From: a virus
Strand: one strand, 5' to 3'
IMG/VR virus record: IMGVR_UViG_3300005466_000058
Location: 1 to 28,974 of that record
Length of the DNA stretch: 28,974 bases
Of the stretch, positions 7,386-28,974 are shown piece by piece. Each line of letters starts with the position of its first letter. The first letter of the stretch is position 1. Below the pieces are notes generated by a model. The model saw only the letters and a list, made by a program, of their open reading frames with translations. It was not told where the DNA came from and ran no database searches. The translations under genes and the position numbers were made by a program.

Positions 7386-7513
7386 TTAGCTGAAGAGTAC
7401 CACAAGCAGCGCCGCCCCGCCAAGCGCCATTGCAGCAATTGCCCCGTCTGAAAGTTCACTCCCGCCGATTACCGCTTGCGTCCCTTCGTCTGCGGGTGAC
7501 GAGGGACCAAACG
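7386..7513 (-). other. Out-of-frame C-terminal membrane anchor of the lytic enzyme (candidate -1 frameshift)
   Basis: A minus-strand frame open from 7598 to the TAA at 7388-7386 lies -1 to the muramidase gene. It reads a Ser/Pro linker (FGPSSPADEGTQAVIGG) then a hydrophobic helix (IAAMALGGAALLVVLFS). It has no ATG, GTG or TTG start before the helix. Slipping back one base at TTTT (7517-7514), just after AGGGGA, would fuse this anchor to the enzyme. A sequencing or assembly indel would give the same picture. The peptide closely resembles the tail anchors of other proteins in the window. Confidence 0.45.
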
Positions 7514-7903
7514 AAAATCCCCTGGAGGTCCCAAGCTGCTTAGGGGTGTATTGGGGTCTACGCCGAGCCAGGATGAAACGTTCGAGACGTACGCTTCTCT
7601 ATTGCCAGTTGCCCACGTGGAAAGCCTCTGGGACAGCGTAAGGCCCCTGGAAGCGTCCAGCGCCAGTTGCCGCTGAGTCGCCGCGATCCCATCGGCCAAT
7701 GTGTCGAAGACGGCGTAGGTTTGATTCTGGCCCATGCCGGGATCGAACATTACGGCCGGCCGCGCACCTGGTTGCCCCGCGTAGATCAGATTGCCGGGGT
7801 TGTTGTTCCGGTATCCCACGCTTGACGTGTTCCAGGTTCCGTCTGCGCGAAGTACGCCCTCTTGCCGAAAGATGGCGTTGGCGAGATCTGCCAGGGTAGG
7901 CAC
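7469..7903 (-). CDS. Phage lysozyme/lytic transglycosylase-like enzyme, 144 aa
   Basis: Predicted to cut the glycan strands of peptidoglycan. LADLANAIFRQEG at the N-terminus carries the likely catalytic Glu. The RNNNPGNL motif near 32-39 and a helical stretch ending in LGVDPNTPL match the lysozyme-like domain found in many phage lytic and virion-associated enzymes. GTG 7903 follows the methyltransferase stop by 13 bases and begins right at the domain; the longer ATG 7999 start would overlap the methyltransferase by 83 bases. In frame the protein ends with a short basic tail. A -1 shift would instead add a C-terminal transmembrane helix, as seen in the virion-membrane transglycosylase P7 of phage PRD1. 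Confidence 0.75.
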   Translation of the reverse strand: MPTLADLANAIFRQEGVLRADGTWNTSSVGYRNNNPGNLIYAGQPGARPAVMFDPGMGQNQTYAVFDTLADGIAATQRQLALDASRGLTLSQRLSTWATGNREAYVSNVSSWLGVDPNTPLSSLGPPGDFRLVPRHPQTKGRKR

Positions 7904-7916
7904 GAATGAAAGTGTA

Positions 7917-8693
7917 TCAGGGTTTGTAAACGGAAGCGATGTACCGGGCCAGTTCAAAGGGAATCTTCGCAATTTGAGCGCTAGCGGCTTTACGGGCATT
8001 CGAACGGGAAGACTTTGAGGCCGCGCCTTCGTTGAACCACTTCGGGCCTGAAAGTCCCTCCTGCTTTACGCCACCGTTGTTCTTTGTAAGTTCCACGTAG
8101 CGCCGCACGCTGACTTCATGGTCCGCGCCGTGCCAGGACGGAGACGGCATCCCGGTTTTTTCGAATACGTGAAAGTTGCTGCGACCCTTCAGCCGCGCCC
8201 CGGAGAACGGCATCAATGCTGGCACATCACCCCACAAGTAGAAAGACCCATAATGCCAGCGTGCCGAGCCCACCCAAGGTTGAGCGCCTTTCACGTTCTC
8301 CACTACCATCGGGATCTTGCGACCGGTGGCAATGCTTGCCTCTTGCTGAATGCGGAAGCACGAATCAAACAATGCGTTGAGCGTGAAGCCAGGGGAGAAC
8401 TTCGAGGTTTGCATCCAGCGTTGCCAGCGTATCTCCCGCTTCGCACGATCCCAAGGCATCGCCATGTACGAGTAGGCTTGACACGGAGGGCTTGCCACGA
8501 TAAGCGCCGCGTCTTTGAACTGTGAACCGTGGAGCGTCAGAACGTCTTGCAGCACGAGTTGAGCCGGGTATTTCTGATCGCCGTAGCAGTGCCGCTCGAT
8601 ATCGAATCCCACCACTTCGTACCCTTCGGCAAGAGCGCCTTCGGCCCATCCTCCGAGCCCGCAGAATAGATCAATGCAGAGGGGCAGACTCAC
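7917..8693 (-). CDS. DNA (cytosine-5) methyltransferase, 258 aa
   Basis: Transfers a methyl group from S-adenosylmethionine to C5 of cytosine. Motif I is DLFCGLGG at residues 8-15, motif IV SPPCQAYSY has the catalytic Cys near 71, motif VI is ENVKG near 132, and the C-terminal AQIAKIPFELARYIA is motif X. It is shorter than most C5 enzymes, so the target-recognition region is compact; phage enzymes are often like this. No restriction endonuclease lies beside it, so it is probably an orphan enzyme protecting viral DNA from host restriction. GTG 8693 was chosen because it overlaps the upstream stop as GTGA and begins directly before motif I. Confidence 0.92.
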   Translation of the reverse strand: MSLPLCIDLFCGLGGWAEGALAEGYEVVGFDIERHCYGDQKYPAQLVLQDVLTLHGSQFKDAALIVASPPCQAYSYMAMPWDRAKREIRWQRWMQTSKFSPGFTLNALFDSCFRIQQEASIATGRKIPMVVENVKGAQPWVGSARWHYGSFYLWGDVPALMPFSGARLKGRSNFHVFEKTGMPSPSWHGADHEVSVRRYVELTKNNGGVKQEGLSGPKWFNEGAASKSSRSNARKAASAQIAKIPFELARYIASVYKP

Positions 8694-8917
8694 GCGCTTT
8701 TGACCGCCCGCCACTTCCGCGTTTCGTTTCGATTGGTCCGTGGAATGACTTTATCTGTAGCTGAGAAGCGGGCATCCGATACGAAACCACGAGCGCATTC
8801 TGACCCCCATTCCGACATGGGCCAGATTCCCGTTTCAGGGTCTATGGTGTGCGGCTTATGCTCTGGCGTGCGATTCGAAGGCCAAGGAACCCAAACGCCG
8901 TCTTCGTCGCGCCTCAC
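8690..8917 (-). CDS. Hypothetical protein, 75 aa
   Basis: Starts at a GTG that overlaps the previous TGA (GTGA) with GAGG 10 bases upstream, and ends in another GTGA with the methyltransferase. It contains TIDPETGIWPMSEWGSECA and WVPWPSNRTPEH, with four Trp residues. No cysteine cluster or membrane segment. A longer frame to 9013 exists but would overlap the zinc protein by 100 bases. Function unknown; coupling suggests it is made with the methyltransferase. Confidence 0.6.
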   Translation of the reverse strand: MRRDEDGVWVPWPSNRTPEHKPHTIDPETGIWPMSEWGSECARGFVSDARFSATDKVIPRTNRNETRKWRAVKSA

Positions 8918-9132
8918 CGCCCGCGCCTCTTTCGTGACTTCATTCGCCGGGTGGGAGGGTTGCCGATCACGAGACACGTAACGCGGGTCTTTCCCAAGCG
9001 CCGCTTCCAGCACGCCTCAGTGCTGCGACACGCCCAATAGAGTTCCGATGAAATGGAGCCGCTATCGATCACGCGCCGCGCCGAAGCGCTGAGTTTCCCG
9101 CAGTAGTGGCAGCGATGGCGTTTTGGCTTCAC
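8914..9132 (-). CDS. Zinc-finger-like basic protein, 72 aa
   Basis: CHYCGK near residue 8 and a second pair (CRSTEAC) near 34 fit one treble-clef or zinc-ribbon site. The C-terminus is strongly basic (RRMKSRKRRGR), suggesting nucleic-acid binding. GTG start, with GTGA junctions on both sides. Part of the accessory operon with the recombinase and methyltransferase. Confidence 0.6.
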   Translation of the reverse strand: MKPKRHRCHYCGKLSASARRVIDSGSISSELYWACRSTEACWKRRLGKTRVTCLVIGNPPTRRMKSRKRRGR

Positions 9133-9365
9133 CGCCCGCGCCCCTTGCCTGATTCCATCAGCCGGACGAAAGGCTTACGCACGCTGTGGCATTCCGAGCA
9201 GCAATAGCACGTGGAAAGTTCGTATGGGTGGAACTGCGGAAACGGAGTATGTACCCGCTCTGACTCCGGCCCGGTGTGGCAGGCGCAATCCGGATTCAGG
9301 CAGCGCGGCAAGTCTTCGACCGGACGCGGGAAGTAGGGCGTACGCGAATCGTGAATGAACTTCAC
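9129..9365 (-). CDS. Cysteine-rich zinc-binding protein, 78 aa
   Basis: Two cysteine clusters, CLNPDCACH near 22 and CYCCSECHSV near 53, with intervening His residues (HTPFPQFHPYE) are consistent with one or two zinc sites. The C-terminus is basic (SGKGRGR). GTG start overlapping the recombinase stop (GTGA). Function unknown; DNA- or protein-binding accessory factor is a guess. Confidence 0.6.
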   Translation of the reverse strand: MKFIHDSRTPYFPRPVEDLPRCLNPDCACHTGPESERVHTPFPQFHPYELSTCYCCSECHSVRKPFVRLMESGKGRGR

Positions 9366-9910
9366 GCCGCCAACACCCGGTACAGAGTAGCCCTGCTTAC
9401 ATTGTAAAGTTTCGCCACGTCAGACACCTTCTCTCCCTTGTCGATCAGCGACTTTGCTCGCAAGATCTGCTGCGAGTTCAGTTTTTCTTTCGGCCCGAAC
9501 TTCACGCCCCGCCGCCGCGCTTCTTTTAATCCGGCCTGCGTGCGCTCCTGGATCATCGAACGTTCCAGTTCCGCGAATACCCCGATCAGTTGCCACATGG
9601 CGCGGCCCGCTGGCGTTCCGGTGTCGATAGACTCTGTAACGGAAAGGAACGAGACACCCCGCCCCTTTAAATCGTCCAAGATCGAAATCAGGTCCTTTAG
9701 ACTTCGGGCCAGTCTGTCCATTTTCCAAACGGTAAGCGTGTCGCCGGACGCGAGAGCCTTTAAGCAGCGCTTCAAACCGGGCCGGTGCATGTTCTTGCCG
9801 GAGAGCCCGTTATCACGAAAGATCGTCTGACACCCGGCGTTCTTCAGTGCTGTGAGTTGCAGGGCTGGGGATTGTTCGCCGGTGGAGACGCGGGCATAGC
9901 CGTAGATCAT
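9362..9910 (-). CDS. Small serine recombinase (resolvase/invertase family), 182 aa
   Basis: MIYGYARVST supplies the nucleophile Ser9 and the active-site Arg7; DRLARS near 65-70 provides further catalytic Arg residues. The long E-helix segment MWQLIGVFAELERSMIQERT and a C-terminal helix-turn-helix (QQILRAKSLIDKGEKVSDVA, then SRATLYRVL) complete the standard architecture and length. The enzyme makes staggered cuts at paired sites for resolution or inversion. It is encoded inside a tightly coupled operon, ATGA with the gene before and GTGA with the gene after. It might resolve genome multimers, switch a DNA segment, or be recruited from a mobile element. No crossover site was identified. Confidence 0.93.
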   Translation of the reverse strand: MIYGYARVSTGEQSPALQLTALKNAGCQTIFRDNGLSGKNMHRPGLKRCLKALASGDTLTVWKMDRLARSLKDLISILDDLKGRGVSFLSVTESIDTGTPAGRAMWQLIGVFAELERSMIQERTQAGLKEARRRGVKFGPKEKLNSQQILRAKSLIDKGEKVSDVAKLYNVSRATLYRVLAA

Positions 9911-10263
9911 GCCCGCCGCCGTTCCCGCTCGAATTCAGCCCGATCCTTTAGCCACTCTATGAACGAACCGCCCGTATCGGCATGCAGAAAGTCCCGGTAC
10001 CGTTGCTGCGACCGCGTAAGCACGGGTGCTTTCGGGCTTTCCGCTAGCATCGCCGCTTTCCCGGCATCCGTGACATGAAACAGCGGAGAACCCCCGGTCA
10101 GTTCGCTCGCGGGCCGCTCGATCATATAGCCCAACCCCACTAGCGAACGGCAGAGGGCGACATCGGCACCCCCAGCGCAGAAATGATTGCGATACTGCCG
10201 CCCTTGCCCGTACTGATCCACGCCAAGGGAGTGCTGAAGAACATGTAACTGCTCTGGAGTCAT
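9907..10263 (-). CDS. Conserved phage hypothetical protein, 118 aa
   Basis: Begins MTPEQLHVLQHSLGVDQYGQ, followed by YRNHFCAGG, a GYMIERPASELTGG segment, and VTDAGKAAM. The pattern is familiar from many phage genomes, where it is annotated only as hypothetical. The central part looks like a winged helix. The C-terminal third is charged and helical (QQRYRDFLHADTGGSFIEWL). ATGA junctions on both sides. Role unknown, possibly DNA-binding. Confidence 0.75.
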   Translation of the reverse strand: MTPEQLHVLQHSLGVDQYGQGRQYRNHFCAGGADVALCRSLVGLGYMIERPASELTGGSPLFHVTDAGKAAMLAESPKAPVLTRSQQRYRDFLHADTGGSFIEWLKDRAEFERERRRA

Positions 10264-10502
10264 GCCGCGTCCTTCGCTGGCCCGACCAGTTGAAACACGA
10301 TATCCGCCTCACGCAGAGCCGCCCGCAAGTCAATTTGGGCAGTGATGGCGTTAGAGCGAAGATCGGCCAGTTCCGAAGGCATCAGCATTTGAGGGTAAGC
10401 GCATCGCTGCGCCACGGCCAGCAATTTTATCTTTGCAGTTTCGGTATGCAGAAGCGCGAGAGCTACGCGCTGTTCAATCTGAGTGCCGTTCATGCCCTGC
10501 AT
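10260..10502 (-). CDS. Helical hypothetical protein, 80 aa
   Basis: Predominantly helical, Ala/Leu-rich and soluble. No motif recognised. ATG 10502 is preceded by a 7-bp inverted repeat and no Shine-Dalgarno sequence; ATG 10493 is a second possible start. Its stop overlaps the next start as ATGA. It heads the coupled run that leads through the recombinase to the methyltransferase. Confidence 0.6.
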   Translation of the reverse strand: MQGMNGTQIEQRVALALLHTETAKIKLLAVAQRCAYPQMLMPSELADLRSNAITAQIDLRAALREADIVFQLVGPAKDAA

Positions 10503-10504
10503 TA

Positions 10505-10555
10505 TGAGACGAACTTACAAGAATCCGCAAGGCCCACCAGTACCAGACCGTCTCA
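10505..10555. repeat. Inverted repeat at the head of the recombinase-methyltransferase run
   Basis: TGAGACG (10505-10511) and CGTCTCA (10549-10555) are exact complements with a 37-base loop, ending two bases before the ATG at 10502. It fills most of the 66-base leader between two leftward genes. It could be an operator half-site pair or an RNA hairpin that affects translation start. Confidence 0.4.
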
Positions 10556-10568
10556 CAGCGTTGGAATA

Positions 10569-10778
10569 TTACCCTTTATGAGACACGCGGAACGTGGAGT
10601 TGGACCGCGCCGCGAGTGTCCGAATGTCCATGCGACGTGCGGTCTTCAATATATCGTTGGCCGGATAGGTGAGACCGGCGAGCTCTGCCAGCATCGATAC
10701 GCCCGCGTGAAAGTCCGCATCGTCGGCCATTATCAACTTCAGCGCTTTGCGGATCGTCTCTCGTTCTGCCCGCGTCAT
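10569..10778 (-). CDS. Small helical hypothetical protein, 69 aa
   Basis: Charged helical protein (MTRAERETIRKALKLIMADD) with a basic end. No membrane segment or cysteine motif. The ATG overlaps the TGA of a tiny upstream frame (ATGA). Family not recognised; size and charge would fit a small DNA- or protein-binding factor. Confidence 0.55.
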   Translation of the reverse strand: MTRAERETIRKALKLIMADDADFHAGVSMLAELAGLTYPANDILKTARRMDIRTLAARSNSTFRVSHKG

Positions 10779-10846
10779 TTATCTGGATTGTACGTCAGTG
10801 CGCTGCGTCCGGCGAGTACTGCCAGTTCCAGCCGGATACCGCCCAC
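10775..10846 (-). CDS. Possible 23-aa peptide
   Basis: GTG at 10846 opens a 23-codon frame (MGGIRLELAVLAGRSALTYN...) whose TGA overlaps the next ATG as ATGA. That is the junction style of real gene pairs here. The frame stays open further upstream without a standard start, so it may be the remnant of a longer gene. Weak support otherwise. Confidence 0.25.
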   Translation of the reverse strand: MGGIRLELAVLAGRSALTYNPDK

Positions 10847-10860
10847 GCCCGAAGAAACCG

Positions 10861-11130
10861 TTACCGCCGATGGCGGAACAAACTCTGAATCAGTTCAGCA
10901 CTCATAGGTTCAGACTCCGGGTATTCATCCACACACCTTGGTCTAGGAGGTGCTGGAGGGCAGCATTGAGGCTCGATCATCCCGCCACCGCCAAGAGGCC
11001 GGAAAGGAATTGTTGCCGGGGGAGCCGGAGAGGGTATCAGGATCAGTTGCACTACAGATTGAGCAACGCGAGCGTTCGGATTGGTTGCCAGCAGGAGTTG
11101 TACGACGGATTGAGCTACCCGAGCCGCCAT
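10861..11130 (-). CDS. Hypothetical protein with internal duplication, 89 aa
   Basis: The N-terminal 30 residues hold a duplicated unit, ARVAQSVVQLLLA then ARVAQSVVQLILI, about 19 residues apart; the DNA of both copies is also similar. A proline-rich stretch (PSPAPPATIPF), a Cys-Cys proline segment and an acidic end follow. The start is a TAATG overlap with the preceding gene. The amphipathic repeat could insert in a membrane or form a helical hairpin. Family not recognised. Confidence 0.5.
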   Translation of the reverse strand: MAARVAQSVVQLLLATNPNARVAQSVVQLILIPSPAPPATIPFRPLGGGGMIEPQCCPPAPPRPRCVDEYPESEPMSAELIQSLFRHRR

Positions 11131-11396
11131 TAAAGCGCCCTTTCTTCGGGCAAGGGACGCCCGCCATTGTATCGGGCAGCATTCGCCGGGTGTTGGCAGC
11201 GCCGGAGAGTCGGCAGCGCCCTATAGCGCTTGTATCCGTCGCCGCAGGCCACTTCCACCCAGATTCCCTCCACTTCCCGCCCGTCTCGATCGAGGAAGCT
11301 GGGTGGTGCGAGGTGAACAGACCCGCCGAGGCCAAGCAAATGCCGTTGGATGGGAACCGAGTAGAGGCCAGGAGCAAAGGGAATTGCTGGAGCCAT
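11130..11396 (-). CDS. Hypothetical protein, 88 aa
   Basis: N-terminal Pro/Gly-rich part (MAPAIPFAPGLYSVPIQR), then GIWVEVACGDGYKRYRALP and two cysteines in the C-terminal half (ACGDG, RRCQHP) that might bind zinc together with His. ATG directly follows the previous TGA, and its own TAA overlaps the next ATG. Several other frames are open across this segment; this one is favoured by both junctions. Confidence 0.5.
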   Translation of the reverse strand: MAPAIPFAPGLYSVPIQRHLLGLGGSVHLAPPSFLDRDGREVEGIWVEVACGDGYKRYRALPTLRRCQHPANAARYNGGRPLPEERAL

Positions 11397-11675
11397 TCAA
11401 GACGCCCTTTCAAATAGTTCGTATGGCAAGGGGCGAAATAGCGCAGTCGGATTCCGGACGGACGCCGCATCGACTACACGAACGTTTCGGTGTTGGACCC
11501 CACAGCGCCCGCAGCGATAGAAGAACCCATCCCGCAGTGTTGAAAGGTTAATCAGATAGACCGTTCCTACTGCGATGTCATCGTGAAGAACGGGATACCC
11601 GCACGGGCAAATAGAAAGCCGCTGCAAGGCCCGCTTTGTGCGACCGGCGTTAGAGCGCTGAAGCGTGGAAGACAT
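11397..11675 (-). CDS. Zinc-ribbon protein, 92 aa
   Basis: CPCGYP near residue 23 and CGRCG near 55 make a classic zinc ribbon with a central strand segment (VGTVYLINLSTLRDGFFY). The N-terminus is basic. ATG 11675 is preferred, though a TTG at 11690 lies in frame nearer to the upstream stop. It follows the ConA-like gene directly. Probably an accessory nucleic-acid or protein-binding factor. Confidence 0.6.
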   Translation of the reverse strand: MSSTLQRSNAGRTKRALQRLSICPCGYPVLHDDIAVGTVYLINLSTLRDGFFYRCGRCGVQHRNVRVVDAASVRNPTALFRPLPYELFERAS

Positions 11676-11699
11676 TGGACGCGCGACCAAACCCGGTGT

Positions 11700-12734
11700 T
11701 TATGTTACCAGATCCGGCCCAAAGGGTGTAGTCGCCAAAGTTGCCAGGGAAGAAACCGGCCCCGGTGTTCTCGGTGTCACCCGGTAGGCATACGAAGTAG
11801 TGAGAGCTTCCGCCGCTCCTACATCCCCGTCCGCATCAGAAGCCAGCGTGTGCGCTCCCGGCCCGTCGAGTTCAGCCAGCAAGGAATGCAGACACCCGAG
11901 CACGGTAAAAGACGCCGGCAGCGCGGGAACTTGCTCAAGAACGGGAATAGCATGGGTGTATTGATCAATCGACCCCGCCGCGGCCGATGACACGTAATCC
12001 ACTGTGCTTTGCGGAATTTCATCCACCAGGTTGAAGTTAGTTCCGCCCGCGCTGGGAGTCCATGCGACCGATACGTCTGCGGTAGGCATTGCGCAATAGA
12101 TCAGCGGAGCGCCGGTGATATCGTCTGCGGCATCCGTCCAGTACCAAAGCGTCGAATCATCGTGATACTGGGTGGTAGTTGAAAGGCTCAAGAGTTGCCA
12201 CTTATCCACGCTTGCCGCCGACCCCGTAACGCGCGTCTTGACGTTCTGAAGATTCAACACCAGAACGCCGTTAACCCGGATTTGCACACTGCCCTGCGTG
12301 GCGTGAATGAACGCTTTGCAGGTGATGTAGTTGTAGCCGGAAGTGTCGATTACGCCCGCAGCGCTTTGCCCCAGCAGCAGCGGGAAGGGATCATTGCCGT
12401 TGTAGACCGATATCGAAAGATCGGGCTCGTAGCAGACTCGAATTTGCTGATCTGCCGTGGCCGCTGAAATCAGCCACATGATATTTGCTTTTGTGCCGGC
12501 CGGAACTCCCCCGTTGGGATTAAAGGCCGTGGTACACATCACCTGATCGCTTGCCGTGAAGACCTTCGAAGGGCCAAATGCCGCGCTTGTAATTTCTAGG
12601 CATCCTATGCCAGTGCGCGGGACTCCCAACGTGGTGTTTACCTTCGTGTCGGTCCCTACATTGTCCCAGTCGAAGGCGAGGCCCGCTGTATTGTGGAAGT
12701 CGAAGCCGCTGCAAAATATGAGTTCGAGGGACAT
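11700..12734 (-). CDS. ConA/LamG-like virion protein, 344 aa
   Basis: Begins MSLELIFCSGFDFHNTAGLA, the usual opening of phage proteins with a concanavalin A-like jelly roll. The lectin domain spans roughly residues 1-205: strands such as SVQIRVNGVLVLNLQNVKT, then DDSTLWYWTDAADDITGAPL. A second typical module follows (IYCAMPTADVSVAWTPSAGG, NFNLVDEIP, VDYVSS), common in phage structural proteins, and a beta-rich end. There is no signal peptide, so it should be assembled in the cytoplasm onto the virion. Glycan binding or a structural spike role is inferred. Confidence 0.75.
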   Translation of the reverse strand: MSLELIFCSGFDFHNTAGLAFDWDNVGTDTKVNTTLGVPRTGIGCLEITSAAFGPSKVFTASDQVMCTTAFNPNGGVPAGTKANIMWLISAATADQQIRVCYEPDLSISVYNGNDPFPLLLGQSAAGVIDTSGYNYITCKAFIHATQGSVQIRVNGVLVLNLQNVKTRVTGSAASVDKWQLLSLSTTTQYHDDSTLWYWTDAADDITGAPLIYCAMPTADVSVAWTPSAGGTNFNLVDEIPQSTVDYVSSAAAGSIDQYTHAIPVLEQVPALPASFTVLGCLHSLLAELDGPGAHTLASDADGDVGAAEALTTSYAYRVTPRTPGPVSSLATLATTPFGPDLVT

Positions 12735-12735
12735 G

Positions 12736-12876
12736 CTATTTTTCTTCGGGCTTGGGAGTCGGACGGCTTGAAGAAGCGGGACTCGCCGGGTGCAGCAGCG
12801 GCCCGCGTCCCGGTATCTGATCCTCAGGAGCCGGAGGTTTCGTATCGTGGTTGAAGTGCGATGTCTTGCGCTTCAT
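12736..12876 (-). CDS. Proline/serine-rich 46-aa protein
   Basis: Below common length cut-offs. Basic start (MKRKTSHFNHD), then a Pro/Ser/Ala-rich disordered body and a charged end (PTPKPEEK). It starts 3 bases after the preceding stop, and its TAG is one base before the next ATG, so it fits the operon exactly. Probably an unstructured virion or linker protein. Confidence 0.55.
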   Translation of the reverse strand: MKRKTSHFNHDTKPPAPEDQIPGRGPLLHPASPASSSRPTPKPEEK

Positions 12877-12879
12877 GAA

Positions 12880-13338
12880 CTAGGTACCGTAAAGCATATG
12901 CAGCAGACCGCACCCGCCAACTAGCGCCGTCCACCAGCCACAGCCGCACCCTTCGCTAGAAGGATCGGGCTCCGGTTCATCATCGGGAGTCGGACTGAAG
13001 GCCAGCGCCCCCAGGTTGACCGCTTGCACTTTGGCAGCGTTCGCCTCAATGTTCAGCTTCGGAAATCGACTATGGGCGTTCGGGTGCCGTTGCCGCCATT
13101 CCTGCCAGCGCTTCACTTCCGCGAGAAACGGGCAATTGGCTAATTCCTGTTCGACGGTAGCGGGACTCTGCGGAATCGGAGCAAAGGAACCCGCCGCCGA
13201 ATGCGAGTGTAGCGGACAGGAAACGTTGGACGCCTTGACGGAGACCGCAGCGACAGCCAGCCCAATCACGGTCATAAGAGAAAACAGCGCATAGCGTAGT
13301 TTCATGATTGGTACATTATGACACAATGCCGCTCTCAC
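12880..13338 (-). CDS. Secreted or membrane Cys-containing protein, 152 aa
   Basis: A hydrophobic N-terminal segment (MKLRYALFSLMTVIGLAVAAVSVKA) looks like a signal peptide or anchor. It is followed by a helical region (VEQELANCPFLAEVKRWQEW), an acidic Pro-rich stretch (PDDEPEPDPSS), and a C-terminal apolar end with GCGCGWW and LLHMLYGT. GTG 13338 overlaps the upstream TGA as GTGA and is used here; ATG 13305 would start directly at the signal sequence and is almost as likely. Unknown family; probably a virion-membrane or periplasmic protein. Confidence 0.6.
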   Translation of the reverse strand: MRAALCHNVPIMKLRYALFSLMTVIGLAVAAVSVKASNVSCPLHSHSAAGSFAPIPQSPATVEQELANCPFLAEVKRWQEWRQRHPNAHSRFPKLNIEANAAKVQAVNLGALAFSPTPDDEPEPDPSSEGCGCGWWTALVGGCGLLHMLYGT

Positions 13339-13550
13339 GGTAGCGTGAGTTCTTCCGCGTCACAGGGGGCCAGTATAGGAGTCACGCCGCAACGCGCTAA
13401 GATTCGCCGCGCTGAATGGGCAATCTGAAGACGGACGCCGTTTTCAGAACGACAAGGGCGACCAGGGCCAGAGCCGCAATGCGGACAGGAAACCTGAACT
13501 GGAGTTACCGGAAAATGTGTTTTAGGTGGCGCTATTTCCCGGTGGGCCAT
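13335..13550 (-). CDS. Zinc-finger protein of the CPxC-G-PC...H type, 71 aa
   Basis: CPHCGSGPGRPCRSENG followed by IAHSARR matches a small zinc motif seen in many phage proteins, where three Cys and one His bind zinc. ATG 13550 overlaps the previous gene by 19 bases and has a G-rich site upstream. Its TGA overlaps the next GTG as GTGA. Likely a small nucleic-acid-binding accessory protein. Confidence 0.65.
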   Translation of the reverse strand: MAHREIAPPKTHFPVTPVQVSCPHCGSGPGRPCRSENGVRLQIAHSARRILARCGVTPILAPCDAEELTLP

Positions 13551-14738: not shown

Positions 14739-14759
14739 TAGGCCCACCCTTCAGCAAAG

Positions 14760-18538: not shown

Positions 18539-18559
18539 GTAAAAGACATTTGCAAGTAG

Positions 18560-19471: not shown

Positions 19472-19487
19472 GGAATGTTGTCAACAA

Positions 19488-20375: not shown

Positions 20376-20388
20376 ACTTCAACCTCCG

Positions 20389-20967: not shown

Positions 20968-21016
20968 TTCTTTCTTTCTCCTCTGGCCCGCAGGCCGATT
21001 AAAATTCGGACCCCCG

Positions 21017-21079: not shown

Positions 21080-21154
21080 CGAAGCCTTGCCTTTCGAGTT
21101 TGCTACAACGCCTGCTGAACTGGCCGGGACAACAGACGAACCTTCACAATCTTG

Positions 21155-22963: not shown

Positions 22964-24951
22964 TATTGATTGATCCCCTCTGCTAGAATTTCGTACGATC
23001 CGCCCGAGAATTCCAACTGCTTATCCAGTACCCGGTAGATCAGATCGGGATACCGCGCGACTCGCACTGTGACGTGCTGGCCGTCCTGATTCACCATGCG
23101 GAATTTATGTGTGTAGACCGCCGTTCCGCCTTCACTTCCAAGATGCGTCTTGGTGGTGAAGTAGTCGATTTTTTCGACCTTCCCTAGCGTCTCCAGTTCG
23201 TGAGGCTTGGAGATTCCGAAGTCTTTCAAGTTAACGGCCTGATCCCCGCCTTCAACAAATAACTGATTTCGCTTTTCGTTGAACGCGAGCAGCGTCTTTT
23301 GCTTCACATCCGACCCGGAATAGAATCGGATCGTCACGCGAGCTTTCCCGTCCACTGTTTTAACTACCAGTTTCCGCAGAGTCCCAGCGCCGGCCAAATG
23401 CCGGTGTACGTGTACTTGCCGCTTGACGGTCACGAACTCCTGAGGGGGTGCGCCGTGGAAGTCTTCGTAGGCTTGCGCCGCCGCGCTTGCAGGATTGCGC
23501 CGAAACTCTGCCGTTGCTTTCCGCGTAATAGCGTCCCGTTTTTTGATCAACGCGAGCAACTTTGCCGGAGACTTCGTGCGAGACATTGCCGCCGTGATCG
23601 CATCCACCTGTTCATCGTAGTTGGGACGTTGACGACCAATGCGAGCGCCGCCGATCACGGGCCGAGGATTGGATTGCAGCGCCTTCAATTTCCGCTCTAC
23701 CACAGGCCGCACCATTTTGAGCGCGTCACACTTCGACACGTACCCGGAGACCGTATACCAGTCCGTGAATTCCGGCGTGGTGACATGAATGCTAGTCTTA
23801 TTCGAGCCGCGATCGTACGTCACATCGCCAATCGCAATGCGAGCCCGAGAATTGCCCCGCGTTGCCGCCTTCACTAACTTACTGCCGTACTTTGCTCCGG
23901 CCCCTACCGCCGCTCCTGTAGCGGCATACCCCAGGTAGTCATTGACTGCGCCGATGGCAGCAGCGGGAATTGGATTGCGCTTCGATGGCCGTAAATCATC
24001 AAGCGTGGTCCACGTCTCAAATCCTGCGTCCCACTTTACCCGTGCCTCTCCAGTCTCTTTATTGACCTCAACGACTTTGCCGGAGTACTCGCCCATTCTT
24101 GAACCAGGCGTGCCCTGAGTTACCCTCTGACCCACCTTCGCAGGATTGCCGCGCCGCTGGGACTTCCGCGATGCAATCTCCCGCGCGAAAGACGAACGCT
24201 TTGCCGGGGGAGTCGCCCGAATCATTGCCACCGCTTCAGGAACGCTCATTTCGTTACCGGCAAGCGGGAACAAGGAACCCTGTCCCCTGTCTTTGTGCGG
24301 GGTAACTACCGATACCGCCGTGAGCCACTGCGCGAGCGTCTTTGCTCCGCCTGAAGTCGGATTGTACTGATTCGTTTTGGTGCCCATGCGAGCTTTCCGC
24401 ATCACGTTGGCCTTCACGACGTTACAGGAACGGCAGGCGTACATCAGATTTTCGGGAGCCGCGTCTACTTCGCGCCCGTTGATGTGTTCAACATCGAGAC
24501 GCCCACGCCGAGCGCCACAGTACCCGCAGAGTTTTGGACCTTCCGGCATATTCCGGTGCGCCCGATACCGATTGCCCCTGTCTGTGATCTTGCCGCCGTT
24601 GGTCCGCAAGAGATCCCCGAAGATCCCTTGTACCGCGTCAGGTTTGAGTGACTTCTTTGCAAGCCGCTCTGTTTTCGCGATTTCTTTTGCCCGCCTCAGG
24701 CCTTGCTTGATGTTATCCGTTGCTTCACGGTCATCCATCCCGAGCCGGTAAGCATCCCCGAGACGATCCAACACGCCTTGCGATCGATCCGTGAGCCGTT
24801 TGGATTCCAGCCATTCGCGGAAGTCTTTACCCCGATACCCTGCTTCACGCGCCTGCTTCGAAGCGCTGGAAATTGTAAGCGAACTCCTGCGAGTTCGCGA
24901 GGGCGCCGCCGCCTTCGAACCGAACCCGAAGATATTCGCTTGCCGCTTCAT
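22963..24951 (-). CDS. HNH-nuclease multidomain protein with NP-motif linkers, 662 aa
   Basis: Residues 1-130 are basic and helical. The HNH domain follows: CGYCG at 142-146, LDVEHINGR with the catalytic His at 156, and CRSC at 173-176, four Cys holding one zinc. Then, separated by N-P motifs at 269, 326, 428 and 486, come an SH3- or KOW-like beta unit (SGKVVEVNKETGEARVKWD), a Gly/Ala-rich apolar unit (LGYAATGAAVGAGAKYG), a small alpha/beta unit, a helical unit, and a C-terminal domain starting AQAYEDFHG and containing FVEGGDQAVNL. The last domain type recurs in uncultured phage proteins. It reads like a set of joined modules. ATG 24951 overlaps the preceding stop (ATGA); 40 upstream residues lie inside that gene. 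Confidence 0.8.
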   Translation of the reverse strand: MKRQANIFGFGSKAAAPSRTRRSSLTISSASKQAREAGYRGKDFREWLESKRLTDRSQGVLDRLGDAYRLGMDDREATDNIKQGLRRAKEIAKTERLAKKSLKPDAVQGIFGDLLRTNGGKITDRGNRYRAHRNMPEGPKLCGYCGARRGRLDVEHINGREVDAAPENLMYACRSCNVVKANVMRKARMGTKTNQYNPTSGGAKTLAQWLTAVSVVTPHKDRGQGSLFPLAGNEMSVPEAVAMIRATPPAKRSSFAREIASRKSQRRGNPAKVGQRVTQGTPGSRMGEYSGKVVEVNKETGEARVKWDAGFETWTTLDDLRPSKRNPIPAAAIGAVNDYLGYAATGAAVGAGAKYGSKLVKAATRGNSRARIAIGDVTYDRGSNKTSIHVTTPEFTDWYTVSGYVSKCDALKMVRPVVERKLKALQSNPRPVIGGARIGRQRPNYDEQVDAITAAMSRTKSPAKLLALIKKRDAITRKATAEFRRNPASAAAQAYEDFHGAPPQEFVTVKRQVHVHRHLAGAGTLRKLVVKTVDGKARVTIRFYSGSDVKQKTLLAFNEKRNQLFVEGGDQAVNLKDFGISKPHELETLGKVEKIDYFTTKTHLGSEGGTAVYTHKFRMVNQDGQHVTVRVARYPDLIYRVLDKQLEFSGGSYEILAEGINQ

Positions 24952-25169
24952 GCCCGAGCCGCCGCCCGCACTTTCCGACTCACCGCACGCCCCGCCCGCT
25001 TCGTAGTCGAAGTTACCGAGATCAAAACGTACAGGCCGATTCCAACCGCCAACCCTTCCGGCCAACCCCACTGCGTGAAATCGAGTCCGCTTTCAAAAAG
25101 TCCCAGGCCCTTCACTCCATACAAGCCGCAGGGAGGTGGCACGGATGGACTGCCGTTCGAGACGTACAT
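24948..25169 (-). CDS. Tail-anchored small membrane protein, 73 aa
   Basis: Starts MYVSNGSPSVPPPCGLYGVK at an ATG overlapping the preceding TGA (TGATG). A single hydrophobic stretch (WPEGLAVGIGLYVLISVTS) is followed by a strongly basic tail (KRAGRAVSRKVRAAARA), which would face the DNA side of a membrane. A longer frame to 25337 overlaps two genes and was rejected. Same design as its neighbours: Met-Tyr start, Pro/Gly arm, one helix. Confidence 0.6.
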   Translation of the reverse strand: MYVSNGSPSVPPPCGLYGVKGLGLFESGLDFTQWGWPEGLAVGIGLYVLISVTSTTKRAGRAVSRKVRAAARA

Positions 25170-25330
25170 CAGCGCACCCCTCGATACTTCGATGACTCCA
25201 GCCATTCCAGCGCGGCCAATGCAAACGCCGCCGCCGTCAGTCCAATAAAGCAAGCGCCGGAGTTCAAGACGACCATTCCCAGCAAGAGAATCAGGCAGAG
25301 ATAGAACAGCAGCAAGCGTAGGAGCCTCAC
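25169..25330 (-). CDS. Small two-helix membrane protein, 53 aa
   Basis: GTG start overlapping the previous stop (GTGA). Two hydrophobic segments, LLLFYLCLILLLGMVVL and GACFIGLTAAAFALAALEW, are joined by a very short turn (NS), and the end is charged. A longer frame to 25411 exists, but the junction favours the shorter form. Predicted to be a membrane hairpin; role unknown. Confidence 0.6.
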   Translation of the reverse strand: MRLLRLLLFYLCLILLLGMVVLNSGACFIGLTAAAFALAALEWLESSKYRGVR

Positions 25331-25623
25331 CGTCCATACCTCCGTGGACCGCTCGATGGGAAAATCATTACCGCGACCAACCCCACTACTCCCAAGCCAA
25401 TCCACAACCACGGAATATCACTTGGGAAGCCAGAACGATCATTCGGCAAGATTGGATCGACGCCAGCCGGCGCATCCGGATTTGATGGATCTACCGCCCG
25501 CGGGCGAACTGGGAGTGTAGAGCCGGGTTGCCAGCAGATTCCCTCGAATAAGTTAGACCACGCATCGCAGTCGATCACGTTGCCGCCCGATCCGAGTTTA
25601 GGCGTGTATCCCAGGCCGTACAT
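25327..25623 (-). CDS. Tail-anchored small membrane protein, 98 aa
   Basis: Starts MYGLGYTPKLGSGGNVIDCD. Two Cys (VIDCD, GICWQ) could form a disulfide. A Pro/Asp-rich spacer (AVDPSNPDAPAGVDP) leads to a helix (IPWLWIGLGVVGLVAVMIF) and a short basic end. The start is a TAATG overlap. Part of the run of similar proteins across this operon. Confidence 0.65.
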   Translation of the reverse strand: MYGLGYTPKLGSGGNVIDCDAWSNLFEGICWQPGSTLPVRPRAVDPSNPDAPAGVDPILPNDRSGFPSDIPWLWIGLGVVGLVAVMIFPSSGPRRYGR

Positions 25624-25889
25624 TAACCGGCCCTCCGTGAAGGAACTGGAACCGACAAGAGTTGCTGGACTAATTGCAATTCTTCCGGCGAGAGCGCGCG
25701 CCGCGACACGCCCAACTTACGAATCTGCTTTGCCGCCGCGTCTTTTACGTAAGGTTCTAACACGTCCCAAAGTTGAGGTGAGCGAGGCTGCACCAGCAGC
25801 TTTACAGACCGCTCCACAATCCCGGAGAGCAGGACATCAACCCGCCCCTTCGGATTGGGCATCACCGCGACTTTGGTACGCCGCTTCAT
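25623..25889 (-). CDS. Basic protein with an NP motif, 88 aa
   Basis: Begins MKRRTKVAVMPNPKGRVDVL, with the N-P motif following a basic start as in the larger NP proteins. The rest is helical and soluble (LWDVLEPYVKDAAAKQIRKL), with PEELQLVQQLLSVPVP near the end. ATGA with the zinc ribbon before it and TAATG with the gene after. Upstream in-frame residues to 26006 lie inside the zinc ribbon gene and were rejected. Function unknown. Confidence 0.6.
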   Translation of the reverse strand: MKRRTKVAVMPNPKGRVDVLLSGIVERSVKLLVQPRSPQLWDVLEPYVKDAAAKQIRKLGVSRRALSPEELQLVQQLLSVPVPSRRAG

Positions 25890-26011
25890 TTGATTTCTAC
25901 GTTCTTGCACTTCGGACACTGATACAAATCTTCCCGCCCATGCCCGGTATCGCTGCCTTCGCGGATATTGCCCTTTCGCTCCATTTGAGTCCCGCAGTCC
26001 GGACACTTCAT
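25886..26011 (-). CDS. Zinc-ribbon miniprotein, 41 aa
   Basis: Below usual length limits. MKCPDCGTQMERKGNIREG followed by YQCPKCKNVEIK gives two CPxC pairs about 28 residues apart, a textbook zinc ribbon. ATGA overlaps on both sides make it certain as part of the operon. Probably binds nucleic acid or a protein partner. Confidence 0.75.
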   Translation of the reverse strand: MKCPDCGTQMERKGNIREGSDTGHGREDLYQCPKCKNVEIK

Positions 26012-26253
26012 CGATTCGAAATTACCTTCAAGAGCAGGATGCCCGCCGCCGCCGCAAGGCCGATCTTGATCCAGTCCGTACGCTCCGAGTAAACTGATTT
26101 GCCCGTTGCCAAATCCGTGTAGACCGTTTCATCCGGCGTCACAGTTACCGACTCGCCGCAGTTCGGAATATTGATCGTCTCGCCCGTTGCCGGATTGACG
26201 ATCGAGCAGGCCCCCAGGCCGCGGCCCCTCACGCGCTTTGCAGGTCGATACAT
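26008..26253 (-). CDS. Tail-anchored small membrane protein, 81 aa
   Basis: MYRPAKRVRGRGLGACSIVN starts with the Met-Tyr and basic arm. A beta-prone middle (NPATGETINIPNCGESVTV, TPDETVYTDL) follows, then one C-terminal helix (DWIKIGLAAAAGILLLKVI) and SNR. Two Cys may pair. The ATG is directly after the preceding TAA, and the TGA overlaps the zinc ribbon start. Confidence 0.65.
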   Translation of the reverse strand: MYRPAKRVRGRGLGACSIVNPATGETINIPNCGESVTVTPDETVYTDLATGKSVYSERTDWIKIGLAAAAGILLLKVISNR

Positions 26254-26706
26254 TTACCCGCGCCTCCGGATTCCATAAAGCCCGCCGCGCATCGCGCCAT
26301 ACAGTTCCCCGTAGCACCCGAGCCCCGACAGGCCCAGATTCGACTTCAGATACGGAGCCATCGCGCCCCAGTAGTTCGCGAGCGTCATAGGCACGGAACG
26401 ATCCCAACCCGCCGCCGTGAACACGTCCGTGGGCGAGGGGGGAGTTTTGCCCGCTGGAAGTTGCCCCGCTAGGTAGAAGTTAAATTGATCTGCCGTGTAG
26501 GGCGTGCTGCCGACTGCCGCCGCCAAACGCTGATAAATCGCATCGAGCGAGTTGAACGCGACACCCGGCGTCGATCCCCCGGTAGTCGTTGACCCCTGTG
26601 TGCCCGTCGTAGTCGCCGTTGCCGGTGTCATCCCGCTGATGTATTTCCACGCGAGATATCCCACCCCTGCAAAGATTCCGACTTTCAGAAGTCCGCTATC
26701 GGCCAC
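26254..26706 (-). CDS. Membrane-anchored protein with C-terminal Gly/Tyr tail, 150 aa
   Basis: An N-terminal helix (LLKVGIFAGVGYLAWKYIS) is followed by a Thr/Gly-rich linker (PATATTTGTQGSTTTGG) and a helical domain (LDAIYQRLAAAVGSTPYTA, then WDRSVPMTLANYWGAM). The C-terminus is LGCYGELYGAMRGGLYGIRR. The GTG at 26706 overlaps the previous stop by 11 bases and has a G-rich site; an ATG at 26790 would give 178 aa but overlaps by 95 bases. The GCYG and LYG motifs recall the end of the protein at 19515. Confidence 0.6.
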   Translation of the reverse strand: MADSGLLKVGIFAGVGYLAWKYISGMTPATATTTGTQGSTTTGGSTPGVAFNSLDAIYQRLAAAVGSTPYTADQFNFYLAGQLPAGKTPPSPTDVFTAAGWDRSVPMTLANYWGAMAPYLKSNLGLSGLGCYGELYGAMRGGLYGIRRRG

Positions 26707-27478
26707 GGCCACCCCCAAAGAGAAAGATTGCTCCGGCCCCGCCTGCGAGCCAACCCCACCAAGGAATCGCGGAGAGGTCGAATCCGCCAAACGACAACGC
26801 GGCCGGCGGATCAGTCTGTAACTGTGGCGGAGGTGTAGTCTGATTCGCCGGTGGAGGGGTGGTAGTTTGCGCCGGAGCCGGTTGGACTACAAACGAAAAC
26901 CCGCCCGCAGAAATTCCGCCCACAGACCATTGCTCACCCCAGGAGCCTACATCACCAGCGTTGATTGTCCCCGACAGAGAAAAGTTGCCGCTCGAATCCG
27001 AGACGCCCATCCGATTGGTATCGGAACCGCCGTTCTTTCCACCCATCACATAGACCGTTGAGTTCGGACGCCCGCCCGTGATTTGAATTGCCCAAGTGTC
27101 GCCGGGATACAGGACGTTTCCGCCGCGTGAGTTCGTGAACGTCACGCGCGGCGAATAATTCACCAAGTTAAGATCCTGCGTGGGAGCCTGAGACGTGTAG
27201 GTTTGTTGCCGTGCAACATAATCCGGAACTACCACGCTTGTTCCTAGATAATCCGCTCCATGCCCCGTATCGATCCAACCCGTACTTGTCGGAGTGCAGT
27301 AGCGCCCCGTAATGGGATCTTGTTTCGCTTCGTTCCGCTGGACACACGCCCACTGTTCCGAAACGCTGGAAGCCGCGCCGCAGTTTTCAGGCTCGCACCC
27401 GGCGAGTCCAATCCGACCGAGGCCGCGCAGTCCAAGCCCGACGTAACGAGGCCGTAATCGCTTTCGAGTTGTGATCAC
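26696..27478 (-). CDS. Ig-like-domain tail-anchored protein, 260 aa
   Basis: A basic Gly-rich start (RKRLRPRYVGLGLRGLGRIG) is followed by a Cys-containing region (CEPENCG, WACVQR, YCTPTS). A beta-sandwich follows (about 107-195): VTFTNSRGGNVLYPGDTWAI, STVYVMGGKNGG, SGNFSLSGTINAG, and FSFVV. A Pro/Thr/Gln linker leads to a single C-terminal helix (WWGWLAGGAGAIFLFGG). The extracellular-type domain on a stalk suggests surface display or a spike. GTG start overlapping the previous stop (GTGA). Confidence 0.65.
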   Translation of the reverse strand: MITTRKRLRPRYVGLGLRGLGRIGLAGCEPENCGAASSVSEQWACVQRNEAKQDPITGRYCTPTSTGWIDTGHGADYLGTSVVVPDYVARQQTYTSQAPTQDLNLVNYSPRVTFTNSRGGNVLYPGDTWAIQITGGRPNSTVYVMGGKNGGSDTNRMGVSDSSGNFSLSGTINAGDVGSWGEQWSVGGISAGGFSFVVQPAPAQTTTPPPANQTTPPPQLQTDPPAALSFGGFDLSAIPWWGWLAGGAGAIFLFGGGRGR

Positions 27479-28191
27479 GTGAGCCCCCAGATAACCAGGC
27501 CAGCGCCCGCCAGTAAGAGCAGCGCCATAGTCGGAGATTTCTGCGCAGCGGAAACAACCGAACTCACCGCGTCAGAGGCTTGCGCCGAAATCGAATCGTC
27601 AACTACGTTCGCATCGTTTGCAATCGGATCGTAGTAGCCAAGGAACCAATTCCAGCATTGCCCCGAGGCATCGCGCCACTTACACGCGCCCCGCTCCCGA
27701 TCCGAAATACAGCGCTTGCCGGCGTCCCCCGTTGCAGGATCACTACACATTTGCTCCAGCCGAGCCCAGATCACATTGAAGTTCGAGAGCGCCGTATTGT
27801 TAGCCGATCGAGGCCGCGGAGTCGGAAGCGCCATGTAAGCATCGAGATTCTGCTTTAGCAGTTGCTCCGCTTGATTCGCCCACTGGGAAGTGACCACGCA
27901 TGTTTGCCCGCATCCCGAGTTGCGAATCAGGTAGGTGATTGCTATTGTGGCCCCGACCAGCGCCGCGCCGATGATCGGAACGGCCAGGCTTGCAGACATC
28001 CCAAGGATTGAGGCCGGTGCTCCAGTCGCCGCCGCTACAGTTGCCGCGTGAGACGCGAGCGCTCCCGTTAGAATCGGAGTACCCAAACCGGAGACCGCGC
28101 CTACCGTTTGCGCCGCATCCCCCATGCCGCGAGGATAGAACCCGCCCCACGTCACAGCGTCCGGAGGTGTTTGAGCAACGGGCATGTACAT
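27475..28191 (-). CDS. Membrane protein with a conserved Cys-rich domain, 238 aa
   Basis: MYMPVAQTPPDAVTWGGFYP is the Met-Tyr arm. An apolar region (LAVPIIGAALVGATIAITYL) precedes a six-Cys helical domain (GCGQTCVVTSQWANQAEQLL, FNVIWARLEQMC, CISDRERGACKWR, QCWNWFLGYYDPIA). A C-terminal helix (MALLLLAGAGLVIWGL) ends the chain. The WNWFLGYYDPIA-type end of this domain is familiar from uncultured phage proteins of unknown function. Disulfides suggest exposure to the periplasm or outside. TGATG overlap with the gene before. Confidence 0.65.
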   Translation of the reverse strand: MYMPVAQTPPDAVTWGGFYPRGMGDAAQTVGAVSGLGTPILTGALASHAATVAAATGAPASILGMSASLAVPIIGAALVGATIAITYLIRNSGCGQTCVVTSQWANQAEQLLKQNLDAYMALPTPRPRSANNTALSNFNVIWARLEQMCSDPATGDAGKRCISDRERGACKWRDASGQCWNWFLGYYDPIANDANVVDDSISAQASDAVSSVVSAAQKSPTMALLLLAGAGLVIWGLT

Positions 28192-28427
28192 CAGCCGACT
28201 CCGACCTCACTTGCGTGAAACCGCTCAGAATGCCGCACATCTGACCGAATCTTCTCGAACCGAAGAATCTCTGCCCTTATTGCCGTAGCTAACTTAATCC
28301 GCTTCTGATCCGCGCATCCTGCGTCCACTGTTTCGGGGCCGGTGATTTGACAACCCTCCAAGGCGAGCGCTTCGCCAAGCCACCTTAGCAGACAGTCGGC
28401 TTCGGCTTGTGTAAGCGTGATTTTCAT
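28191..28427 (-). CDS. Small helical hypothetical protein, 78 aa
   Basis: MKITLTQAEADCLLRWLGEA is an amphipathic helix start, with further helices (KRIKLATAIRAEILRFEKIR) and a His-rich end. No membrane segment. Junctions ATGA and TGATG on either side. The only soluble protein among the membrane genes of this stretch apart from the zinc ribbon and the NP protein. Role unknown. Confidence 0.6.
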   Translation of the reverse strand: MKITLTQAEADCLLRWLGEALALEGCQITGPETVDAGCADQKRIKLATAIRAEILRFEKIRSDVRHSERFHASEVGVG

Positions 28428-28974
28428 TTCTTACCTCCGAACGCCTTCGCTACCAGAATCACGCCCAAACCGATACCGCCCCACAAGAGAAGATTGCCGC
28501 CGCCGCTTGCCGCGCTGAAGGCCGTTGTGAGCGAGGGCGCCGAGCCGGGAGTTTCGATGTACTGGCCATTCGGCCCGCGTACGTATGTGGTGGGCGCCAC
28601 TTTCCGCCCGAAGATATCCACCAGCTTGTTTGAGATCCCGGCGAAGAACTGGCCATAGTTGAAGCCGCCGCCGCTGGGTGTCGAAGTGGAGTAGGTTGGA
28701 GCGCCTTGCCCGTAGATCCCAAATGGATCCTGCAGCGTAGTCACGTTCGGATCGGACCCGCCGCCGAAAGTCGCCTCTTGTCCTGTTTCAGGATCGATGT
28801 ACCCAACCCCGCGCCGCCGCTTGCCCGCCACGTATCCATGGAGCCCGCTCCAGGGTTGAGCGTCCGCGATCGCATGCCCGCTTGCATCCCAGACTTGAGT
28901 ACGTGTGCGATGCTCTGCCGGAACTTGCCAGCCGGGATACTTCCCATGCGAAGCGTCCAAAGGAAGCCGGGTGC
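28424..28974 (-). CDS. Tail-anchored protein, 5' end outside the window
   Basis: The frame stays open to the right edge, so the start is not seen; a TTG at 28960 is unlikely to be real. Visible parts: a polar start (HGKYPGWQVPAEHRTRT), a basic GKRRRGVGYIDPETGQEA segment, a Gly/Thr-rich stretch (STSTPSGGGFNYGQFFAG) and TTYVRGPNGQYIETPG. It ends in a helix (NLLLWGGIGLGVILVAKAF) and GGKK. Same tail-anchor design as the genes to the left. Confidence 0.6.
   Translation of the reverse strand, partial: TRLPLDASHGKYPGWQVPAEHRTRTQVWDASGHAIADAQPWSGLHGYVAGKRRRGVGYIDPETGQEATFGGGSDPNVTTLQDPFGIYGQGAPTYSTSTPSGGGFNYGQFFAGISNKLVDIFGRKVAPTTYVRGPNGQYIETPGSAPSLTTAFSAASGGGNLLLWGGIGLGVILVAKAFGGKK

Follow-up and report, generated by a model that had tools for sequence, protein, structure and literature searches.

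Genome and capsid-candidate genes

The window analysed here, a stretch of 28,974 b that is the entire IMG/VR record IMGVR_UViG_3300005466_000058 (G000), is a fragment of a larger circle. This circle of 38 kb is probably the genome of a tailless and temperate DNA virus that infects Acidobacteriota, and the window covers most of it. As far as we could find, the group to which the virus belongs is previously undescribed. Two further records, IMGVR_UViG_3300025936_000013 (G001, 38,253 b) and G002 (13,595 b), are 100% identical to the window across their overlaps. G001 is circularly permuted: bases 10001..1 of the window open it (10,001 bases) and 28974..9875 close it (19,100 bases). Because its two ends overlap by 127 bp that lie inside the window, the genome is a complete circle of 38,126 bp (G001 minus the terminal overlap). 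The 9,152 bp outside the window (L006 10002-19153) carry, besides small early genes, the N-terminal half of the late transglutaminase-like gene; no terminase, portal, packaging ATPase or other packaging gene was found in them. The features that bear on circularity and on the capsid are the following.

9875-10001, no strand: 127-bp stretch common to both ends of the G001 contig, internal in the window; marks circularity
13532-14053, minus strand: 173-aa single jelly-roll-like protein (HHalign), kept in 8/8 virus-like genomes
14250-14747, minus strand: 165-aa single jelly-roll-like protein (HHalign)
15278-16768, minus strand: 496-aa protein with three jelly-roll-like domains in tandem (HHalign); relatives have two separate genes in place of this fusion
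16765-17718, minus strand: 317-aa protein with two tandem jelly-roll-like domains (HHalign, AlphaFold/Foldseek)
18612-19379, minus strand: 255-aa protein, best main-coat candidate; its family is found in essentially every element, at the same position

The jelly-roll-like proteins were compared by HHalign with the single-domain family of the related elements described below (G153, G129, G010, G521 and G006-G008), with 20 column-shuffled controls per comparison. The first half of the 317-aa protein scored 56.0 (null maximum 16.7) and the second half 36.1 (null maximum 18.1), and the two halves scored 35.6 against each other (null 20.4). For the 496-aa protein, the two C-terminal domains gave 39.4 and 51.6 (null 18.8 and 16.6) and the N-terminal part 37.6 (null 13.5), or 78 with a deeper single-domain set. 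The 165-aa protein scored 42.1 (null maximum 14.0), and the 173-aa protein 27.8 against the deeper set (null maximum 13.3). In all, one domain occurs seven times in the window, spread over four genes: once each in 13532 and 14250, three times in 15278 and twice in 16765. The same domain is single in simple relatives, which have one 200-aa coat candidate and single-domain jelly-roll-like proteins; doubled versions are also found in G668 and, less clearly, in G755. As the three-domain protein corresponds to two separate genes in G003, the window gene 15278-16768 is a fusion; three assemblies agree exactly on its sequence. For the gene at 16765 the most likely start is 17718, giving 317 aa, which corrects an earlier call.

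An earlier sequence-only reading of the window had noticed a closing-strand signature shared by several beta-rich proteins. The shuffled controls bear out the homology of 13532, 14250, 15278 and 16765, but 18612 is a separate family, with no profile link to the jelly-roll-like set. By its conservation and position, the 255-aa family is the best candidate for the main coat protein.

The AlphaFold model of the 317-aa protein, built from four sequences, shows two consecutive strand sets (predicted local distance difference test, pLDDT, 59; predicted template-modelling score, pTM, 0.52). In a Foldseek search of the PDB with this model, the first match was an unrelated glycanase and the second the phiCjT23 capsid; the next matches include the STIV, PRD1 P3, PBCV-1 and iridovirus capsids and the double-jelly-roll enzymes GH172 and PHM. 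Against BFVD, the STIV coat protein came first. With TM-scores of only about 0.2, Foldseek therefore supports the double-jelly-roll fold class for the modelled 317-aa protein without establishing or proving its structure. The fold comparison proposed from the letters alone was successful in part, as 16765 retrieves double-jelly-roll capsids at low confidence but 18612 is without a usable model (pLDDT 45). The Foldseek matches of the 255-aa protein, mostly picornavirus-type jelly rolls, were non-significant and not used as evidence. We consider it quite likely that the shell is built of jelly rolls.

Tail and packaging genes

Among open reading frames (ORFs) of 50 codons or more, the whole 38,126-bp circle has none with a credible Walker A motif. 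The sole full match, GQLPAGKT, sits in a small membrane protein (26254-26790) and was rejected. Pfam and PHROGs scans covered the large ORFs of the circle and 84 of the largest ORFs from five relatives, with 25 of 45 PHROG families listed for the relatives. The large genes of the circle matched a glycosyltransferase pair, HNH, C5-methyltransferase, resolvase, HD phosphohydrolase, muramidase domain, DUF968 and a DnaA-C-like helix-turn-helix, and its large ORFs gave no match to terminase, portal, HK97 capsid, sheath, baseplate or tail families. Terminase, portal, capsid and tail families are likewise missing among the matches listed for the 84 ORFs, by which the five relatives carry replication genes (DnaB, primase, helicases, topoisomerase) and methyltransferases. 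A "tape measure" PHROG match in the circle equals the muramidase domain and was rejected. The lack of a terminase, portal, tape-measure, sheath or baseplate signature, first noted for the window, holds for the complete circle by Pfam, PHROG and Walker A and, among the Pfam and PHROG matches listed, for five relatives. A terminase, portal, tape measure or unrelated folds, which the sequence-only reading had named as evidence against it, were sought in the complete genome and its relatives and not found.

A tailed phage (Caudoviricetes) could be hidden here if its terminase, portal and tail genes were too divergent for recognition and the beta-rich proteins belonged to decoration, tail or fibre domains. 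Both the muramidase domain and the fibre-type protein do resemble tailed-phage proteins, and 35-42 kb is a typical siphovirus genome size. We nevertheless regard such a phage as very unlikely: terminases require a P-loop and the complete circle has none, no portal or capsid family appears in six genomes (by Pfam and PHROG, among the matches listed for the relatives), the late block has no gene of tape-measure length, and the capsid-candidate domain models as the double-jelly-roll type. In our judgement the virus is very probably tailless.

The sequence-only reading had proposed a search of the flanking sequence for an A32/FtsK-like packaging ATPase, and the completed circle is without one. No FtsK/HerA-type (A32-like) ATPase was found in the circle or in the scanned proviral spans, and no packaging-type P-loop protein in those spans. 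Three P-loop proteins were rejected as packaging motors: those in G003 (551 aa) and G007 (897 aa) are superfamily 2 (SF2) helicase-like by eye, and the one in G153 (886 aa) is a Prim-Pol replication protein. We lean slightly towards motor-free packaging. An integrative plasmid or satellite with a self-made shell, to which a helper virus or the host supplies the packaging motor or more, would also encode no motor, and the integrase, the resolvase and the variable replication genes would suit it. This explanation is unlikely, however, as the elements have a full conserved set of late structural-type genes with a lysis-type muramidase and a fibre, seven circular or integrated members have full gene content, and no helper-dependence signature was seen. 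Use of a host translocase would be compatible with a temperate, tailless virus as well.

Related elements

Seventeen related elements were found. The eight virus-like genomes are the window genome, G003-G008 from IMG/VR and G009, a contig of a Bryobacterales metagenome-assembled genome. With the transglutaminase-like gene as query we obtained G003 (42,358 b, 116-bp terminal overlap), which is syntenic across the late block, and with the C-terminal domain of the 702-aa protein (61% identical) G004-G008 and G009. G004-G007 are complete circles because of their terminal overlaps of 119-127 bp, and the five further virus records that close as circles (G003-G007) measure about 35-42 kb. Scans of IMG/VR with single proteins (the 496-, 346-, 255- and 702-aa proteins) returned identical copies only, and a profile search of genome contigs with alignment A1 gave no match.

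The late block has a common order in the elements, namely the transglutaminase-like gene, membrane proteins, the hyperbasic NP-motif protein, a 200-255-aa coat candidate and the jelly-roll-like proteins. By iterative profile searches, every one of the eight virus-like genomes has the transglutaminase-like protein, the hyperbasic NP-motif protein, the 173-aa jelly-roll-like protein and the C-terminal domain of the 702-aa protein. The 255-aa family, the remaining jelly-roll-like genes and a divergent 447-aa gene are found in five of the eight, and in the other three S1-S3 occupy the corresponding positions. S1 and the 255-aa family are bridged by provirus intermediates (G521, G153). The five viruses with long double proteins form one clade in the coat-candidate and transglutaminase-like trees (support 99/100 and 100/99; midpoint root only); the trees set this clade against the rest and not strictly double against single, as G668 and G755 have doubled domains.

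The 447-aa protein (L006 17167-18510, outside the window) is encoded by the first gene of a divergent operon, which adjoins the transglutaminase-like gene. Its homologues (G003-G006, G009, G153, G521, G010, G129, G726 and G841) are similar only in the N-terminal ~110 aa, and the C-terminal part is variable. Distant coat-candidate relatives with a long acidic mid-insertion are encoded in G151 (6774-7766, L077), G784 (43669-44562, L078) and G755 (6548-7525, L079), where they adjoin transglutaminase-like genes; they possibly form a further subgroup.

Proviruses and hosts

Profile searches of Acidobacteriota genomes yielded the integrated or chromosomally linked relatives G153, G521, G010, G129, G726, G841, G668, G151, G784 and G755, and the coat-candidate gene is present in 9 of 399 genomes of one class. 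The G153 element is flanked by 45-bp direct repeats (4838481 and 4859048), the left of which is the 3' part of a tRNA-Gly gene. A tyrosine integrase lies just inside the left repeat, followed by a Prim-Pol/DUF927 protein and then by the late block in family gene order. Cellular genes flank G010 (CinA) and G521 (TruB); a tyrosine recombinase and an RsmE-type methyltransferase occur in G129, and G841 is situated inside a 497-kb contig. These integrated relatives in Acidobacteriota chromosomes indicate that the group is temperate and that its hosts are Acidobacteriota. A second, related tyrosine integrase is located just beyond the right repeat of the G153 provirus (L045 14224-15339, equal to G153 4859224-4860339), and the site suggests tandem or successive integrations at one tRNA-Gly gene.

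The elements might instead be non-viral, that is, mobile elements encoding a surface, vesicle or pilus-like assembly. They have many membrane proteins and a glycosyltransferase, and they are known from sequence alone. This is hardly credible in view of the complete circular contigs repeatedly recovered as virus records, the temperate organisation with an integrase at a tRNA site, and the several paralogous jelly-roll-like proteins, muramidase and fibre. The element is very likely a virus.

Other late genes and membrane proteins

The remaining annotated genes of the window are the following.

7469-7999, minus strand: muramidase/transglycosylase-type protein (PHROG E 2e-15); homologues in G003, G010, G153 and G521
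11700-12734, minus strand: 344-aa fibre-type protein (phrog_2448 E 8e-8), common to tailed phages (tblastn), G009 and G129
17718-18254, minus strand: 178-aa tail-anchored protein, transmembrane (TM) segment 152-170
18254-18640, minus strand: 128-aa membrane protein, TM 41-59
19515-20375, minus strand: 286-aa hyperbasic NP-motif protein with a glycine-rich hydrophobic part, net charge +44
20389-21024, minus strand: 211-aa late protein with an N-terminal hydrophobic segment, TM 29-47; homologue in G003
21155-22678, minus strand: tandem glycosyltransferase-like protein (Pfam Glycos_transf_2 E 3e-9); homologues in G004, G005 and G009
22679-22963, minus strand: 94-aa basic NP-motif protein, net charge +19; homologue in G003
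22963-25071, minus strand: 702-aa HNH-like/NP-motif basic protein, net charge +48; its C-terminal ~183-aa domain is the family marker
25327-25623, minus strand: 98-aa tail-anchored protein, TM 70-88; homologue in G009
25623-26006, minus strand: 127-aa basic late protein, net charge +16; homologues in G004, G005, G009 and G153
26008-26253, minus strand: 81-aa tail-anchored protein, C-terminal TM
26254-26790, minus strand: 178-aa late membrane protein with the chance Walker-like GQLPAGKT; homologues in G003, G004, G005, G009, G010, G129 and G153
26696-27478, minus strand: 260-aa late protein; homologues in G003, G010 and G153
27475-28191, minus strand: 238-aa membrane protein with two hydrophobic segments; homologues in G003, G004, G005, G009, G010, G129 and G153
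28424-28974, minus strand: C-terminal half of the transglutaminase-like late protein, C-terminal hydrophobic anchor 328-346

The full transglutaminase-like gene (L006 18643-19704, 353 aa) extends past the window end. Its product has homologues in all eight virus-like genomes and in the proviruses, and it matches Pfam Transglut_core at E 0.003, under that family's cut-off. The C-terminal domain of the 702-aa protein has the same distribution, and the hyperbasic NP-motif protein is found in the eight genomes and in G153, G521, G010, G129, G726 and G841.

With TM segments called at a Kyte-Doolittle mean of at least 1.6, seven late-block genes and the transglutaminase-like gene reach the cut-off, and three further proteins have signal-peptide-like N-termini; the first estimate of about ten membrane proteins was roughly right. 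The description of 19515-20375 as a hyperbasic protein fused to membrane segments is correct for its charge and conservation, but the hydrophobic segments stay below the TM cut-off. Similarly, the muramidase domain stands, while the potential anchor is seen at the C-terminus of the G003 homologue and not in the window copy. A virion with a membrane is moderately favoured, and the membrane-protein content is consistent with an internal one.

The proteome contains 18 K/R-NP motifs, against 7.8 expected from shuffled proteins (maximum 16 in 200), and they are concentrated in the basic proteins. In every element the basic late proteins repeat the motif [KR]-x(0,2)-N-P-[AG] (in the window, at 19515-20375 and 22679-25071), which might be a processing site or a binding motif. 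Elsewhere in the window, 2476-3777 encodes a 433-aa fibre-like protein (phrog_19068 E 2e-18) that is common to deposited phages and is a candidate second host-recognition protein. A 565-aa protein (735-2432) combines Cys-rich N-terminal segments with an HD-type deoxyribonucleoside 5'-monophosphate phosphatase (phrog_318 E 7e-72) and possibly has a role in the nucleotide pool or DNA modification. A C5 cytosine methyltransferase lies at 7917-8714, and a resolvase/DNA-invertase at 9362-9910 adjoins the 127-bp stretch where the G001 contig was cut.

Comparison with known virus groups

Singelaviria have a shell of two single-jelly-roll capsid proteins. The Acidobacteriota group resembles the Simuloviridae and P23-77-like viruses of this realm in its circular genome and temperate life (Simuloviridae), several single-jelly-roll-type proteins and many membrane proteins (PMC12642351). 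Those viruses, however, have their own packaging ATPase (PMC12642351), genomes of 16-19 kb and archaeal hosts; there is no detectable sequence similarity, and the domain of the Acidobacteriota group is also doubled and tripled. With the Tectiviridae and PRD1-like viruses (Varidnaviria) the group shares a double-jelly-roll-type protein, membrane proteins, a lytic transglycosylase-type protein and the tailless logic, but it has no A32/FtsK-like ATPase or protein-primed polymerase, its genome is circular and no sequence similarity was found. A possible Varidnaviria-type feature is the pair of tandem homologous domains in 16765-17718, a candidate double-jelly-roll (DJR) protein (pLDDT 59, TM-score about 0.2). 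The PRD1-like or P23-77-like logic proposed by the sequence-only reading agrees with the DJR capsids among the best Foldseek matches, at low confidence, but the packaging ATPase that it predicts is absent, and it therefore stays a working analogy and not membership.

The Finnlakeviridae (FLiP) and phiCjT23 likewise have no packaging ATPase, a circular genome and a double-jelly-roll-type protein. The known ones differ in being small single-stranded DNA (ssDNA) Flavobacterium viruses with a Rep protein, whereas the genome described here is 4 times larger and no Rep was found among the scanned ORFs. An ssDNA virus of this type with an expanded circular genome and the same shell principle would account for the circle, for the missing ATPase, which FLiP-type viruses themselves lack, and for the phiCjT23 capsid as second PDB match. 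We consider it quite unlikely, as Pfam and PHROG detected no rolling-circle Rep family among the scanned ORFs (small ORFs were only partly scanned), the simple members have single-domain proteins, there is no sequence match to any PDB capsid, and the FLiP genomes known so far have a size of about 9 kb.

FLiP, the Odin group, SPV1 and the polyoma/papillomaviruses all have smaller genomes than the Acidobacteriota group. They are the precedents for jelly-roll viruses free of a packaging ATPase (PMC5894146, PMC8812541). The Odin group of metagenomic DJR viruses has a double jelly roll without this ATPase, as here (PMC5894146), but its genomes are the smallest of the DJR supergroup, it is archaea-associated in later work and its other gene content differs. 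Portogloboviridae (SPV1) have a single-jelly-roll shell without the ATPase (PMC8812541); SPV1 differs in its archaeal host, shows no sequence match, and the domain of the Acidobacteriota group is also doubled. The group behaves like a tailless jelly-roll virus but is not placed in Varidnaviria, Singelaviria or Finnlakeviridae, as a usual feature of the first two (packaging ATPase) and of the third (Rep, capsid similarity) was looked for and not found.

The capsid and membrane candidates gave no tblastn match in 50,697 phage records, with the fibre-type protein as sole exception, and the 702-aa marker domain gave none in plasmids. Profiles of the capsid candidates found chance-level matches only among PDB sequences, none of them to the FLiP/phiCjT23 capsid. 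The earlier view that the proteins and gene order cannot be recognised as those of a known group agrees with the capsid candidates being without a tblastn, PHROG, Pfam or PDB-sequence match. The literature search covered open-access full texts, with subscription papers and bioRxiv outside its scope, and found no description of such Acidobacteriota viruses.

Proposed mechanism

The virus would persist by integration, with an integrase and a tRNA site as in G153, or as a circular episome, and would replicate with host enzymes and variable virus helicases and primases. Expression of the late block would supply the membrane proteins, the hyperbasic NP-motif protein and the coat and jelly-roll-like proteins. 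The 255-aa family and the single, double and triple jelly-roll-like proteins may form an icosahedral shell, and the small membrane proteins and hyperbasic NP-motif protein may condense the genome and arrange a membrane, internal or associated. Assembly or stability might be aided by the transglutaminase-like protein, the fibre and glycosyltransferase would work at the surface, and the muramidase would open the cell wall. As there is no virus-encoded motor, the most economical model is that the shell (and membrane) assembles around circular DNA condensed by basic proteins, as in polyoma/papillomaviruses or FLiP-like viruses; alternatively, a translocase might be borrowed from the host.

Several points weigh against this picture. 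The group is known from genes and not from observed virions. For packaging without a motor, 35-42 kb would be an unusually large size. The host of the window virus is inferred from its relatives, and a lipid membrane in the virion is only deduced. The AlphaFold models are of low confidence (pLDDT 59 for the 317-aa and 45 for the 255-aa protein), the TM-scores are low, and the fold of the main-coat candidate is unproven.

Implications

Of five Acidobacteriota virus isolates described recently, every one has a tail (PMC11924767). Very little is known of tailless viruses in soil bacteria, and a widespread group that standard annotation leaves unnamed would alter the picture of soil viruses. The view that jelly-roll viruses must be very small to manage without a motor (PMC5894146) is called into question by the absence of one at 35-42 kb. 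Tentatively, and with more doubt than confidence, we suggest a lineage apart from all known realms, temperate in Acidobacteriota and motor-free up to 42 kb, in which single jelly rolls were doubled and once tripled within the lineage (first in the clade of five viruses and, it appears, a second time in G668 and G755). The origin of double-jelly-roll capsids is disputed between duplication in viruses and a cellular DUF2961 ancestor (PMC8812541). If true, our suggestion would mean a virus-internal origin of double jelly rolls, against the view that the duplication predates viruses. With single-, double- and triple-domain relatives in one lineage, the origin of the double jelly roll becomes directly testable by a few structures.

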